The translations under genes and the position numbers were made by a program. Positions 12,371 to 17,900 of a stretch of 64,000 nt of DNA are shown here, one piece after another; the first letter of the stretch is position 1; every line of letters begins with the position of its first letter. A model generated the notes under the pieces. The model was not told the origin of the DNA. It ran no database searches and saw nothing but the letters and a program-made list of their open reading frames with translations. This DNA is from Pseudoxanthomonas sp. PXM01 (lineage in GTDB: Bacteria > Pseudomonadota > Gammaproteobacteria > Xanthomonadales > Xanthomonadaceae). Where the stretch lies: NCBI RefSeq assembly GCF_014851815.1, contig NZ_JACVAJ010000001.1:868001-932000 (forward strand), read 5' to 3'.

Positions 12371-13138
12371 ATGCAGCCCACCCATACCCTTCTCATCACC
12401 GGCGCAGCCAGCGGCATCGGCGCCGGCATCGCCGCGCAGCTGGCCGAAGCCGGCCGCCACGTGATCGTCAGCGACCTCAACCTCGACGCCGCCGAAGCCG
12501 TGGCGACGCAGATCCGCAGCGAAGGCGGTTCCGCCGAGGCGGTCGCGCTGGACGTCACCTCGCAGGAAAGCATCGACGCCGCCCTGGCGACGATCTCCCG
12601 CCCCATCGACGTGCTGGTCAACAACGCCGGCCTGCAGCATGTGTCGCCGCTCGAGGACTTCCCGATCGAGAAATGGGATTTCCTGGTGCAGGTGATGCTG
12701 GTCGGCGTGGCCCGCCTGACCCGCGCGGTGCTGCCCGGCATGCGCGAACGCGGCTTCGGCCGCATCGTCAATATCGGCAGCATCCACGCGCTGGTGGCCA
12801 GCCCGTACAAGAGCGCCTACGTGGCCGCCAAGCATGGCCTGGTCGGCTTCTCCAAGGTGCTGGCGCTGGAAACGGCGGACACCGACATCACCATCAACAC
12901 GGTCTGCCCCAGCTACGTGAAGACACCGCTGGTCGACAAGCAGATCGCCGACCAGGCCCGTACACGCGGCATCTCCGAAGCCGACGTGGTCAGCCAGGTG
13001 ATGCTGAAGCCGATGCCGAAGGGCGTCTTCATCGGCCTGGATGAACTGGCCGGCATCACCGCGTTCCTCACCTCGCCCGCCGCACGCAACATCACCGGCC
13101 AGACGATCGTGGTGGACGGCGGCTGGACGGTGCAGTAA
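12371..13138 (+). CDS. bdhA: D-3-hydroxybutyrate dehydrogenase (short-chain dehydrogenase)
   Basis: 255 residues, standard length. The enzyme oxidises (R)-3-hydroxybutyrate to acetoacetate with NAD+, feeding PHB breakdown products to acetyl-CoA. The Rossmann motif TGAASGIG is at 10-17, the NNAG motif at 84-87, and the catalytic set S137, Y150 and K154 appears in NIGSIHALVASPYKSAYVAA. KQIADQARTRGISEADVV and MLKPMPKG toward the C-terminus are features I associate with the bacterial 3HB dehydrogenases and not other SDRs. Start at 12371 has AGGAG eight bases upstream. Ten bases downstream begins the response regulator, so the two are one operon under the GTAC operator. Confidence 0.9.
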   Translation: MQPTHTLLITGAASGIGAGIAAQLAEAGRHVIVSDLNLDAAEAVATQIRSEGGSAEAVALDVTSQESIDAALATISRPIDVLVNNAGLQHVSPLEDFPIEKWDFLVQVMLVGVARLTRAVLPGMRERGFGRIVNIGSIHALVASPYKSAYVAAKHGLVGFSKVLALETADTDITINTVCPSYVKTPLVDKQIADQARTRGISEADVVSQVMLKPMPKGVFIGLDELAGITAFLTSPAARNITGQTIVVDGGWTVQ

Positions 13139-13148
13139 GCGATACCGC

Positions 13149-13814
13149 ATGCCCAACCTGCTGATCGCCGACGACCACCCGCTGTTCCGTGCCGCCCTGC
13201 GCGGTGCGGCGGCCGATGCCGTCGCGCAACTGTCGGTGCGCGAAGCGGAGTCGCTGGACGGCGTCATCGCCACGCTGGAAGCGCACGACGACATCGACCT
13301 GGTACTGCTCGACCTGCACATGCCCGGCAACCATGGGCTCGCGGGCCTGGCGGCGATCCGTGCGCAGTTCCCGGCGGTCGCGGTGGTGGTGGTGTCCGCC
13401 AACGACGATCCGCGCGTGGTCCGCCGCGCGCTGGACCATGGCGCGGCCGGCTATCTGCCGAAGAGTTCCGGGCTGGATGAACTGCGCGACGCCATCCGCA
13501 GCGTGCTCGCCTGCGAGCAATGGCTGCCGGCATCGCTGCGTGGCGCGGTAGCGCGCTCGCAGTCCTCCGAACACGACACCGAGCTGGCGGGCCGCCTGGC
13601 CAGCCTGTCGCCGCAGCAGTTCCGCGTACTGACCCTGGTGGCGCAGGGCCTGTTGAACAAGCAGATCGCCGATCGCCTGGACGTACAGGAACGCACGGTC
13701 AAGGCCCACCTCTCCGCGATCTTCGACCGCCTGGGTGTGCGCAACCGCACCCAGGCCGGCGTGGTGCTGCGCGAACTGGAACTGGCAGATCCGGCGCGGC
13801 AGATCGAGGGCTGA
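13149..13814 (+). CDS. LuxR-type response regulator, CrbR/ErdR-like
   Basis: 221 residues. REC domain at 1-120 with acidic pair D8-D9 and phospho-acceptor D55 in LVLLDLHMPG, and K at about 105 in GYLPKSSG. The NarL/LuxR helix-turn-helix is at about 153-205 (LSPQQFRVLTLVAQGLLNKQ, IADRLDVQERTVKAHLSAIF). The opening MPNLLIADDHPLFRAALRGA resembles CrbR of Vibrio and ErdR of Pseudomonas, which work with symporter-fused kinases (CrbS, MxtR) to turn on acetyl-CoA synthetase and related genes. A kinase of that type is encoded 1 kb away at 14899-18240. Co-transcription with the dehydrogenase suggests control of 3HB use. The precise family assignment is inferred from architecture and context. Confidence 0.82.
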   Translation: MPNLLIADDHPLFRAALRGAAADAVAQLSVREAESLDGVIATLEAHDDIDLVLLDLHMPGNHGLAGLAAIRAQFPAVAVVVVSANDDPRVVRRALDHGAAGYLPKSSGLDELRDAIRSVLACEQWLPASLRGAVARSQSSEHDTELAGRLASLSPQQFRVLTLVAQGLLNKQIADRLDVQERTVKAHLSAIFDRLGVRNRTQAGVVLRELELADPARQIEG

Positions 13815-13888
13815 GGTTCCACGTATCCACGCAGGATGCCGGGACGTCGTGGAACGCATGCGTGGATCAGTGATGTCACGCCGCGGTC

Positions 13889-14112
13889 ATTTTTTCGCCA
13901 CCCGTCTTGACAGCATTGCGCCACAACGCGTGCCGACGCTTATCCACATGTTCGTCGACAGATCATCCACACCCGGTGTGGACAACCTCGACACCGGCCC
14001 GTCATGCACTGGTCAAATTTTCGCCACACATCTTGACAGGCCTGCGGCGCAAGGCGCCGACGCGGTTATCCACACGGTTTCCCCAGCGTCATTCCACAGG
14101 GGATGTGGAAAA
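13889..14112. repeat. Two imperfect ~100-bp direct repeats carrying DnaA-box sequences
   Basis: Module 1 (about 13889-13985) and module 2 (about 14015-14112) share, in order: TTTTCGCCAC, CTTGACAG, a GCG/CAA-rich stretch with CCGACGC, a perfect DnaA-box-type TTATCCACA (13940-13948 and 14066-14074), a TCAT(C/T)CCACA, and a closing palindrome (TCCACACC/GGTGTGGA in module 1; TTCCACA/TGTGGAA in module 2). A third box match, TTTTCCACA on the minus strand, lies at 14104-14112. The whole 500-bp gap 13815-14314 lies between convergent genes, so these are not promoters of the flanking genes. No open frame there looks like a protein. Confidence 0.6.
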
Positions 14113-14136
14113 GTCGTGTCGTGGAACACGCACCTG

Positions 14137-14294
14137 CCTCTGTAGGAGCGACGTGAGTCGCGACCGCAGACCGGAACTGCCTTGATCTGTCGATAGCGGA
14201 GAGCCACAAGACTATCGTCGTCTCGCCCCTGACTCATCCACGGTGCATTGCCCGTCGCCCATTCCGGTCGCGACTCACGTCGCTCCTACAGAGG
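14137..14294. repeat. REP pair: perfect 30-bp inverted repeat around a 98-bp spacer
   Basis: The 30 bases at 14137-14166, with core GTAGGAGCGACGTGAGTCGC, recur exactly on the opposite strand at 14265-14294. The core is the REP motif widespread between genes in Xanthomonadaceae and Pseudomonas. It lies just downstream of the NUDIX gene (minus strand) and next to the DnaA-box modules. Folding of the pair could act as a terminator or RNA stabiliser for the convergent transcripts. Confidence 0.8.
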
Positions 14295-14314
14295 AAGCAT
14301 GCAAACGGACAACT

Positions 14315-14803
14315 TCAGATCCGCGAGTAGTCCCAGGAGACCATGCGGCCGTCGCGGTACGGCATGACGCCGTGGAAGCCGCGCGGGTCGTCGTCGAATA
14401 CCAGCGGCAGGAAGTGGCGGTCGCCGTCCCACAACGGCAGCTCCATGATCTTCTCCACCGGCACCCATTCCAGCGTGCCCTCGGGGTTGGTCTCGAACGG
14501 CGTGCCGCTGTACGCGGTGATGACGAAGACAAAGCCCAGCCAGTCCTCGCCGTTCTTGCCGAAGCCCGGCCAGCTGATCGTGCCGCGCAGCGTCAGCGCA
14601 TCGCAGTCGATGCCGGCCTCCTCCAGGATCTCCCGACGCATGCCGGCCACGACGTCCTCGTCGCGCTCGATCTTGCCGCCCAGGCCGTTGTACTTGCCCA
14701 GATGCTGATCATCCGGACGCGCATTGCGATGGATCAGCAGGACCTGCGAACGGTCGGGCGACAGCACGTAACCGAGCGTGGCGACGATGGGGGTGTAAGG
14801 CAT
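14315..14803 (-). CDS. NUDIX hydrolase, 8-oxo-dGTP diphosphatase-like (MutT family)
   Basis: 162 residues from ATG at 14803 (MPYTPIVATLGYVLSPDRSQ). The Nudix box G-x5-E-x7-REUxEExGU is intact at residues 43-65: GGKIERDEDVVAGMRREILE then EAGI. KYNGLGGKIE just before the box and WPGFGKNGEDWLGFVFVI after it resemble the 8-oxo-dGTP diphosphatases of the YtkD/MTH1 type. It probably cleaves an oxidised or otherwise modified nucleoside triphosphate to the monophosphate and pyrophosphate. Single gene: it is convergent with the response regulator operon across a repeat-rich gap, and separated from the kinase gene by a second REP pair. Confidence 0.88.
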   Translation of the reverse strand: MPYTPIVATLGYVLSPDRSQVLLIHRNARPDDQHLGKYNGLGGKIERDEDVVAGMRREILEEAGIDCDALTLRGTISWPGFGKNGEDWLGFVFVITAYSGTPFETNPEGTLEWVPVEKIMELPLWDGDRHFLPLVFDDDPRGFHGVMPYRDGRMVSWDYSRI

Positions 14804-14847
14804 GCGAGGGTTCCGGAATGCAGGCGCGCATTCTAGCCTTGGCGGTC

Positions 14848-14914
14848 GTGGGAGCGGCGTAAGTCGCGATCGCCCGCCGGCACACCCGGGATCGCGACTT
14901 ACGTCGCTCCCCCA
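14848..14914. repeat. REP pair overlapping the 3' end of the hybrid kinase gene
   Basis: GTGGGAGCGGCGTAAGTCGC (from 14848) and its inverted partner GCGACTTACGTCGCTCCC (within 14890-14914) form a close pair with an 18-bp spacer. The right arm covers the kinase stop codon (14899-14901) and its last few codons, so a mobile repeat has supplied the end of the gene or has inserted very near it. Confidence 0.7.
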
Positions 14915-17900
14915 CCGGAGACCCGCGCCGCCAGCAACCGGTCGAGCACCGACTTCAGCGCCAGCGGTCGCACCGGTTTGGCCAGCAGCGGCAGATCGGC
15001 GTCGCGGACCGCACGACGCACCGCATCGGTCTGGTCGGCGGTGAGGATCAGGCAGGGACGCGAACCGTGCGAAGCGCGCAGCCGTTCGGCCAGCACGACA
15101 CCCGTGTCGCCGTCGTCCAGGTGGTAATCGAACAACCACAGGTCCGCCGCCTGGCCACGCAACGCAGCATCCGCCGCTACACCATCGCCGGCCGTCGCGA
15201 CACGACAGCCCCACCCTTCCAGCACCTGCCGCAACGCGGACAACGCGACCGGATCATTGTCGACAGCCAGCACATGCCGACCCGCGAGTCCGGGCTTGCC
15301 GACCATCGCCGGTACCGGTGCGGGCGTCGCGACCCGCGTCAGGTCGACCGCGAAGACGGCACCGCGCCCCACTCGGCTGCGCAGCGACAACGGTGCCGCC
15401 AGCAAGGCGGCGATGCGGTCGGCGATCGACAGCCCCAATCCCAGGCCCTGCCCCGGCACATCGTCACCACGCCGGAACTCTTCGAAGATCCGCCGCTGGT
15501 CCGCTTCGGCGATGCCCGGACCGGTGTCCCACACCTCCACGCGCACCCTCGCACCGACCCGGCGCACGCCCAGCAGCACGCCGCCGCGCCCCGTGTAGCG
15601 CACGGCGTTGGCGAGAAAGTTCTGCAGGATGCGGCGCAGCAGCTGCGGATCGGTGTGCACCCAAGCGCGTGTCGGCACGATGTCGAACGACAGGCCGCGC
15701 TCATGCGCCAGTACGCGGAACTCCGATGCCAGCGGCTCAAGCACCTCCATCAGGGGAAGGTCGCGCGGCTCCGGCACCAGCCCGCCCGCCTCCAGTCGCG
15801 ACATGTCGAGCAGGCCGGTCAGCAGGTCGGTGGTGGAATCCAGCGCACCGCGCACCTGCAGCGCGGTCTCGCGCTGGTGCGTTTCCGGCAGCTGTTGCGA
15901 TAGCGCATCGGTGAACAACTGCGCCGCATGCAATGGTTGCAGCAGGTCATGGCCGATCGCGGTCAGGAAACGGCTCTTCGCATCGTTCGCGTGTTCGGCC
16001 TCGCGCTTTGCGGTTTCCAGCAACGTGGTGCGCTCGGCGACGCGCTGTTCCAGCGTTTCGTTGGCCTGCTTCAGCGCCCGCTCGGCCTGGCGCGACGCGG
16101 TCACGTCGGTGTACGTGGCCACGAAACCGCCACCCGGCATCGGATTGCCGCGGATCTCGACGATGCTGCCGTCCGGGAACACACGCTCGGTCAGGTGCGG
16201 CGTGCCGGCACGCATGAACGCCAGCCGCCGCTCCAGTGCGCGTTCGTCGTCGCCCCGCTGCGGCATGCGCTGCAGCGCCCAGCGGGTCAGGTCGGCGATC
16301 GGCCGGCCCACCTGCAGCACGTCGGGCGGGAACCCGAACATCTGCGCATAGCGCCGGTTCCAGGCCACCAGCCGTTGTTCACGGTCGATCACGCTGATGC
16401 CCTGGCTCATGTTCTGCAGCGCGGCCTCCAGCACCTGCTGGTTGAAGCGCAGGTCCTGCGACGCCTCGCCGACGATCGCGGCCACCGTTTCCAGGTCGCC
16501 GCTCTCCCGGCGCGCAGCGTCGAGCAGCAGCCGTGCGGACGCCGAGCCCAGCACGGCGGCCAGTTCGCGCTCGAGCCGTGCCTCGATCAATGCCGGTACC
16601 GGACCGCTGCGGGGCGCATCGACCAGCAGCTCCTCCACCCGCTCACGCGGCAGGAAGCGTCGCCCGGCATCCCGCAGCGTCCTGGCGTCGAAGCCGCGGC
16701 TGTCGGCGCGTCGCGGCGCCGAACCGCGCCAGCCCATGACCACGAACGTCACCGCGGTGCCGAGGAACAGGCTGACGCCGACAGCACGGCCGAGCCGGCT
16801 CCAGCCGGTCAATCCGAAGAAGCCATCGGGTGCCAGTCCGGCAATGCCGAACGGACCGTGCGCCAGCCACGCCGGCGCAACGCCGCGCGCATCCATCGTC
16901 ACCGGCAGCAACAGCAGCCAGACCCACACCGCGAAGCCGGCGACGATGCCGGCGATCACCGCCCGAGGCGGCGTCTGCGGGCGCCAGATGGCGAAACCCA
17001 GTGCGGGTGCCAGCGTGGCCAGTGCCGAGAACGACACCGCCCCCACGTCGGCCAGCGCGTCGTTGCCTGCGACCAGCCGGCTGTACGCCCACGCCAGCAA
17101 CATCACCGCGACGATGCCGACGCGGCGTTGCATCAGCACGGCGCCACGCAGGTCGCCACCGCGGCCTCGCAGCCAGCCGCCGCGCAGCAGGCCAGGCGCC
17201 AGCCAGTGGTTGCCGATCATCAGGCTCAGTGTCAGCGTGCTGACCACCACCATGCCGGTGGCCGCGCTCAGGCCGCCGAGGAAGGCCAGCAACGCCAGCC
17301 CCTGGTGGCCTTGCGACAGCGGCAGCGCCAGCACGTAGAGATCGGACGGCACGGCATCGCCGAACATCGCACCGCCGGCACGCGCCAGCGGCAGCAGCGG
17401 CGCAGCCATCAGCACCATGTACAACGGGAACAGCCAGCGCGCGGTGCGTACATGGCGTTCGTCGCGGCATTCGACGACGCCCACGTGCACCTGATGCGGC
17501 AGCGTGAACATCGCCAGCACACCCAGCGCGACCAGCGGCAGGAAACCGTAGGTCGTGGACGCCGGCGCCGACACCGCAGGCACCGACGGCAGGTCCGGCA
17601 GTCCGAACCAGACGAACAGGCCCAATGCCAGCATCGCCGCCAGCTTGAACAGCGACTCGAACGCCATCGCCAGGATCAGCCCGCGGTTGTGTTCCACCGC
17701 ACTGGCGCGCCGCGTGCCGAACAGCATGGCGAACACCGCCATCGCCAGCGCCACGTACAGCGCGCTGTCCTGCCAGGCCGGCAGCGCTTCGTTGCCAGGC
17801 GATCGCGTCAGCAGCGCGAAGCTCATCGCCACCGCCTTCAGCTGCAGCGCGATGTAGGGAATCAGACCGAGTGCGGCGACCAGCGTCACCGCTGCGGCCA

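Follow-up and report, generated by a model that had tools for sequence, protein, structure and literature searches.

What does a duplicated module crowded with DnaA boxes do in the gap between two convergent genes? We address this question for one locus of Pseudoxanthomonas sp. PXM01, within a window that comprises the whole 64-kb stretch of DNA analysed. An earlier sequence-only reading had suggested that the locus might titrate DnaA as datA does, help to reactivate it as DARS does, be a relic of a plasmid or phage origin, or be a dispersed element or structured RNA. Of these options, DARS-like reactivation gives the best fit to the sequence comparisons described below, and we lean towards the view that two DARS-like elements lie here in tandem, with a putative role in DnaA recharging.

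Two tandem modules in a convergent gap

The element spans 13883–14116, so that the sequence-only reading had the locus right and the extent (13889–14112) somewhat too short. It consists of two non-coding modules of ~107 bp each, arranged in tandem at 13883–13989 and 14008–14116. The duplication of a ~100-bp unit proposed earlier is real, in that 74 nt at 13875–13948 are 72% identical to 14001–14074 at an offset of 126 bp. The gap is convergent, as had been stated, with a gene for a LuxR-type response regulator on the + strand ending at 13814 and a NUDIX gene on the - strand with its 3' end at 14315. A convergent setting is not a general rule, since the gaps around other copies are convergent, tandem and divergent as judged with a crude gene caller.

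For comparisons among genomes we built a sequence-only model, R1, from an alignment (A1) of 42 modules of the same genus and without any enterobacterial sequence; the rows of A1 were chosen by a pattern that fixes a 5-bp spacer and allows up to three substitutions. The features of the two window modules are:

13883–13989, + strand: module 1; R1 match of 87.4 bits, with this copy partly used to build R1
13885–13899, + strand: Fis-like palindrome GGTCATTTTTTCGCC of module 1, 78 bp upstream of box II, 5/6 Fis consensus positions
13906–13913, + strand: CTTGACAG motif of module 1, read directly
13940–13948, + strand: perfect consensus DnaA box TTATCCACA of module 1, in the role of box III, 14 bp from box II
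13963–13971, + strand: DnaA box II of module 1, TCATCCACA
13977–13985, - strand: DnaA box I of module 1 (TTGTCCACA on the - strand), head-to-head with box II, spacer 5
14008–14116, + strand: module 2; R1 match of 85.1 bits, with this copy partly used to build R1
14011–14025, + strand: Fis-like palindrome GGTCAAATTTTCGCC of module 2, 79 bp upstream of box II, 5/6 Fis consensus positions
14032–14039, + strand: CTTGACAG motif of module 2, read directly
14066–14074, + strand: perfect consensus DnaA box TTATCCACA of module 2, 15 bp from box II
14090–14098, + strand: DnaA box II of module 2, CATTCCACA, weak, with two mismatches
14104–14112, - strand: DnaA box I of module 2 (TTTTCCACA on the - strand), head-to-head with box II, spacer 5

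Each module reads in the order A/T-centred palindrome, CTTGACAG, a G+C-rich stretch, TTATCCACA, 14–15 bp, box II, 5 bp, and box I in the opposed direction. The closing palindrome noticed earlier is present in each copy, and is in fact the head-to-head pair of DnaA boxes, TCATCCACA-CCCGG-TGTGGACAA at 13963–13985 in module 1 and CATTCCACA-GGGGA-TGTGGAAAA at 14090–14112 in module 2; no other TCCACA-N0-12-TGTGGA pair occurs in the window, and each of the two has a spacer of 5. Near-matches to the DnaA box do crowd the ~220 bp in which they had been reported, as five of the six TTATCCACA matches with at most one mismatch in the 64-kb window fall within 13940–14112. A window total of six, compared with 2.9 expected, is reached by 5 of 100 shuffles, and it is therefore the clustering, and not the total, that is unusual.

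An exact TTATCCACA is found in 38 of the 42 same-genus modules, CTTGACA in 31 and CTTGACAG in 22. A further motif of the sequence-only reading, CCGACGC, is common to the window copies but unconserved in the alignment. The best-conserved columns of this same-genus alignment, for which extraction allowed up to three substitutions in the boxes, are the DnaA boxes and the palindrome.

Conservation of the modules and a related element upstream of priA

The earlier suggestion to look for the module elsewhere was followed with R1. At E≤0.01 the genome itself contains three modules, the two in the window and one at C4:32158–32263, and matches are present in 211 of 247 genomes of the family, representing 47 of 54 genera, with 1–13 per matching genome; the search at this threshold gave no match in the other 36 family genomes, including two of the same genus (G025 and G033). 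At E≤0.001, 107 of 200 genomes of the order are matched, in a sample that again includes family genomes. With matches in so many family genomes and genera, the proposed relic of a plasmid or phage origin is unsupported, and the same neighbourhood in many relatives also speaks against it. A decayed dispersed repeat, with many scattered copies and degenerate boxes, is similarly not what we see, because so much of the family is matched, the genome has only three modules at E≤0.01 and the boxes are among the best-conserved columns. We also agree that this is not the usual oriC, as dnaA is on another contig (C6) and no AT-rich stretch is seen beside the modules.

Several arrangements of the modules in other genomes deserve mention in their own right. 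In other genera, modules have folP (dihydropteroate synthase) on one side and the series miaA-hfq-hflX on the other, in the interval that ends at miaA (loci L228, L230, L232, L234, L236, L238–L240, L242, L245 and L251). In G260 two modules at a phoH/miaB-like locus (L218 3545–11880) flank genes that the crude caller reads as encoding a VgrG-like protein, a protein with a PLD domain and a third that has no Pfam match. Genus g35 has arrays of several diverged modules, with up to 13 matches per genome (G227:C1 near 5590000 [L229] and 5647000 [L230]; G194:C1:4160080–4162516 [L228]).

The head-to-head 5-bp pair is, to judge from its recurrence, a selected feature and not an artefact of copy selection, because scans with free spacers in the family and the class agree with loci found by BLAST alone. 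A search of 22 family genomes from 12 genera for ATCCACA-N-TGTGGA, with spacers of 0–12 permitted, gave 123 raw matches, compared with 7 for the reversed pattern, and the spacer is 5 in 77 of 86 places (tallied by hand). In a class sample of 66 genomes, for which the tally was recounted from the rows, the matches listed amount to 150 rows at 98 places in 48 genomes; among these matches the spacer is 5 in 55 of the 98 places, other spacers account for at most 7 each, and 32 genomes have a spacer-5 pair. No head-to-head match with spacers of 0–12 was found in 16 of the 66. BLAST alone led to 26 loci, and at these the NTCCACA-N-TGTGGA pairs close to the match have a spacer of 5 in every case (49/49).

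Perfect TTATCCACA boxes are not in excess in the genome, which has 10, the same number as for the reversed pattern. Modules account for three of these and a site close to dnaA, at C6:87134, for one; two more are paired head-to-head at C6:548526–548548, where they belong to a related element adjoining priA (L259 4523–4628). This element has the form CCATGCACA-3-TTATCCACA-5-TGTGGATAA, with a palindrome at 78 bp (the start of the Fis 15-mer) and an IHF consensus matched at 8/9 positions at 111 bp. It is present in this genome and in the 22 complete relatives examined, and is located at 0.050–0.246 of the genome from dnaA (mean 0.119 in 22 complete genomes). PriA is encoded beside the pair at 14 of 14 further loci and likewise at eight others (PriA corresponds to cluster F14, and was identified by profile at L233 and L259 and by tblastn at L264–L277, other F14 members by blastp clustering); it is also within the 300-bp flanks of 5 of 20 class sites. 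Over 45 sites from family and class, the 9-mer at a gap of 3 from box II agrees with the DnaA box at 6.64/9 positions, compared with at most 3.84 at other gaps, a value that is inflated as the orientation of each site was picked by its gap-3 box III score. At 23 priA-linked sites, 5–7 of the 9 positions of box III agree with the DnaA box, and the IHF consensus at offset 111 averages 7.43/9, where the median over offsets is 2.78. The priA element resembles the modules in having a TGG-N11-CCA palindrome at 79 bp and head-to-head boxes with a spacer of 5, but differs in its III-3-II-5-I spacing, in a conserved IHF consensus at -111 and in lying nearer the origin (0.05–0.25). In two g70 genomes (L268 and L269), two head-to-head pairs ~360–370 bp apart are present upstream of priA.

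The distance between palindrome and boxes is fixed in both types of element. From the palindrome start (TGG) to box II it is 79 bp in 32 of the 42 modules, 80 bp in nine and 78 bp in one, and TGG-N11-CCA is 79 bp from box II at 22 of the 23 priA-linked sites and 78 bp at the other. A free palindrome search returned exactly 80 bp at 15 of 43 sites (10 of 23 priA-linked and 5 of 20 class sites) with the others scattered, partly reflecting longer chance palindromes that win the search; the fixed-form test covers the priA sites. Binding of a dimeric protein to the palindrome is well supported as a prediction because of the symmetry and the fixed distance to box II, and the palindrome arms have no covariation above shuffles, which fits a protein site and not a hairpin.

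Fis is the likeliest candidate for this protein. Scored against the Fis consensus GnnYAnnnnnTRnnC, as given in a portion of PMC4245941, the 42 modules score highest at offset 78 (4.21/6; median 1.95, next 3.81), as do the 23 priA-linked sites (3.78; median 1.96, with the next, 3.70, over DnaA boxes), and in the 20 class sites offset 78 ranks second (3.65 versus 3.80 over the boxes; median 2.00). The consensus is perfect at offset 78 in 4 of 42 modules, 2 of 23 priA-linked sites and 7 of 20 class sites, where arithmetic with equal base frequencies gives a chance of ~1 in 1024 per position; six of the 42 modules score just 2/6 there. A Fis homologue is encoded in 8 of 8 genomes tested, including this one, where the identity is 48%. 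Scoring the IHF consensus over offsets revealed no separate conserved IHF site in the 42 modules.

Relationship to the DARS sites of E. coli

DARS sites are described in E. coli, and the DARS2 form in E. coli-like species (sections of PMC4245941 and PMC8682772), and sequences similar to DARS1 and DARS2 are mentioned for many proteobacteria in a passage of PMC10380432. Both sites have three boxes, with box I opposed and equal spacing, and DARS1 works in vitro without added factors (both from a part of PMC5742627); ADP release requires the head-to-head I/II pair, according to excerpts of PMC10380432 and PMC8682772. In the orientation used for the modules, DARS1 reads TAATACACA-3-TTATCCACA-5-AGTGGATAA and DARS2 reads TTCTTCACA-3-CTATCCACA-5-GGTGAATAA. 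DARS2 needs IHF. We take DARS1 to lie in the bioD–uvrB gap, and the three-box layout found there supports this; DnaA boxes were also sought in the uvrB–ybhK gap, where none is present. The DARS2 core was placed at the earlier of two box groups, using deletion primers and the spacing rule (parts of PMC4585315 and PMC5742627, respectively).

R1 matches DARS1 weakly, with 13.0 bits and E-values of 0.00089 in 11.5 kb and 0.0068 in an 88-kb search; the match begins at a CGCCA half-palindrome and runs through to box I, with much of the score contributed by the palindromic core. The DARS2 and datA stretches gave no match to R1 at E≤1. The modules share with DARS1 the head-to-head I/II pair with a spacer of 5 (in both window modules), a third box directed as box II, a CGCCA half-palindrome at the corresponding distance, a non-coding location and a length of ~100 bp. 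They depart from it in that box III is 14 and 15 bp from box II in the two window modules, not 3 bp, and is a perfect TTATCCACA (a gap of 2 from box II offers a weak 9-mer only, with a mean of 5.0/9), and in having a Fis-like palindrome and being tandem and multi-copy, with up to 13 per genome compared with the two DARS of E. coli. With DARS2 they have in common the orientation of the core, the I-II spacer and sites for nucleoid proteins upstream of the core, on the box III side. DARS2, however, has two IHF consensus sites at -83 and -99 and Fis matches elsewhere (as reported in part of PMC4245941), whereas in the modules a Fis-like site stands at -78/-79 and a separate conserved IHF site is absent. 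At offset 78 both DARS1 and DARS2 score 2/6 for Fis, and DARS2 has the IHF consensus there.

We regard the modules as a DARS-like variant and not as proven members of the DARS class, because the III-II gap is wider, the copies are multiple and no separate IHF site is conserved. The reactivation proposed in the sequence-only reading is favoured by the I-5-II pair, which is as in DARS1 and DARS2, and by the weak DARS1 match; the wider box III gap and the IHF result count against it. The priA element has the DARS spacing (III-3-II-5-I) throughout, and the window modules are looser relatives of it.

By analogy with the E. coli sites, we infer that the modules bind DnaA and Fis and support nucleotide exchange. 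The upstream TTATCCACA box, directed as box II, would recruit DnaA with high affinity, and DnaA would be seated head-to-head on boxes I and II. A protein on the palindrome, most likely Fis, would bend the DNA, with the fixed helical distance aiding assembly. Head-to-head contact between AAA+ domains could then loosen ADP from ADP-DnaA, as proposed for E. coli DARS, and the apo-DnaA set free would bind ATP and be able to start replication again.

The openly licensed PMC literature yielded no description of these elements that we recognised for Xanthomonas, Stenotrophomonas, Xanthomonadaceae or priA. A DARS-like element with a fixed sequence grammar is present in most sampled genera of a family distant from E. 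coli, and the bare head-to-head 5-bp core recurs in the class sample. These provide concrete sites for studying DnaA recharging outside the E. coli group, and their natural variation allows tests of what box III spacing, Fis and copy number each contribute.

Chromosomal position and competing explanations

In 30 complete genomes, R1 matches with E<1e-5 form 83 clusters, of which none is within 0.1 of the chromosome from dnaA, 3 are at 0.1–0.2, 18 at 0.2–0.3, 30 at 0.3–0.4 and 32 at 0.4–0.5; this cut-off omits seven weaker clusters at 0.07–0.12, mostly the priA element, and the set also omits some R1 rows with E-values of 1e-4 to 1e-3. The window locus is the main site; in each of the six complete genomes of the genus its distance from dnaA is 0.353–0.379 of the chromosome, in keeping with the conserved distance from oriC that characterises DARS. 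A bolder and rather unlikely reading is that the family uses a two-tier system of recharging, in which one canonical DARS of the IHF/Fis type upstream of priA, nearer the origin, would be accompanied by multi-copy, terminus-side, Fis-gated variants with a high-affinity box. Were this so, DnaA would be recharged more strongly late in replication, and the next initiation would depend on the previous round being almost finished, because terminus-side modules double only when the forks near the end of the round.

The strongest rival to the DARS-like reading is titration, whereby the clustered boxes of the modules simply sequester DnaA, so that initiation is delayed by mass action and no nucleotide exchange takes place; we consider this unlikely, while according it real weight. 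It would be consistent with the presence of six DnaA boxes in 230 bp across both modules, with a consensus TTATCCACA in the box III role that is stronger than box III of either DARS1 or DARS2, and with the location in modules of three of only ten perfect TTATCCACA in the genome. Neither the fixed 5-bp spacer (77 of 86 places) nor the fixed distance of the palindrome, however, is explained by titration alone, and most strong copies are terminus-side, as opposed to the origin-side enrichment of DnaA boxes that a part of PMC12371093 describes for E. coli.

It is improbable that the modules act like datA in stimulating the hydrolysis of ATP bound to DnaA (DDAH). Like datA, the modules are a DnaA-box cluster outside oriC with one head-to-head pair, but the spacer of that pair in E. 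coli datA is 3 and not 5. Moreover, datA works with IHF (stated in a part of PMC5742627) and the modules have no separate conserved IHF site, such that the datA option of the sequence-only reading fits less well than the DARS-like one.

We think it more improbable still that the modules are terminus-side markers or replication-fork barriers, that is, polar nucleoprotein sites through which forks are affected or the terminus half of the chromosome is organised. The absence of clusters within 0.1 of dnaA (0 of 83) and the location of 62 of 83 beyond 0.3 (E<1e-5, 30 complete genomes) would be expected of such sites, although that cut-off leaves out the seven weaker clusters at 0.07–0.12. Polarity is similarly two-sided: 64 of the 83 clusters read against the fork, including every cluster of genus g26 on both arms, but orthologous copies are not independent, and counting by locus (by eye) gives ~9 loci against the fork and 3 with it. 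All clusters in g64 and most in g35 read with the fork, and in four g1 genomes (G014, G015, G018 and G291) two loci are opposed in direction. Because of this reversal in g64 and g35 and the non-independence of orthologous copies, we do not use polarity as support for any reading, and a fork trap, for which strict polarity towards the terminus would be expected, is not favoured on the same grounds, polarity being strong in some genera and reversed in others.

An operator or structured RNA serving a neighbouring gene is the least probable explanation, and a very doubtful one. Some copies are in tandem or divergent gaps, and the sister element is upstream of priA, but the neighbours in the window converge; a consensus scan for promoter- or terminator-like sites in the window gap found none. 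The structured RNA suggested at the outset did not hold up, as the covariance analysis run on both palindromes gave nothing above shuffles, the fold z-score is -1.35, and an Rfam search of 13000–15000 returned no match at the gathering score and two matches far below it.

The same gap also contains, adjoining the modules, a 33-nt inverted repeat of the GTAGGAGCGACGTGAGTCGCGACCG type at 14134–14166 and 14265–14297, with arms that are 97% complementary and 98 nt apart. It looks like a REP-type repeat, and GTAGGAGCGAC-like sequences are present beside several same-genus orthologues.
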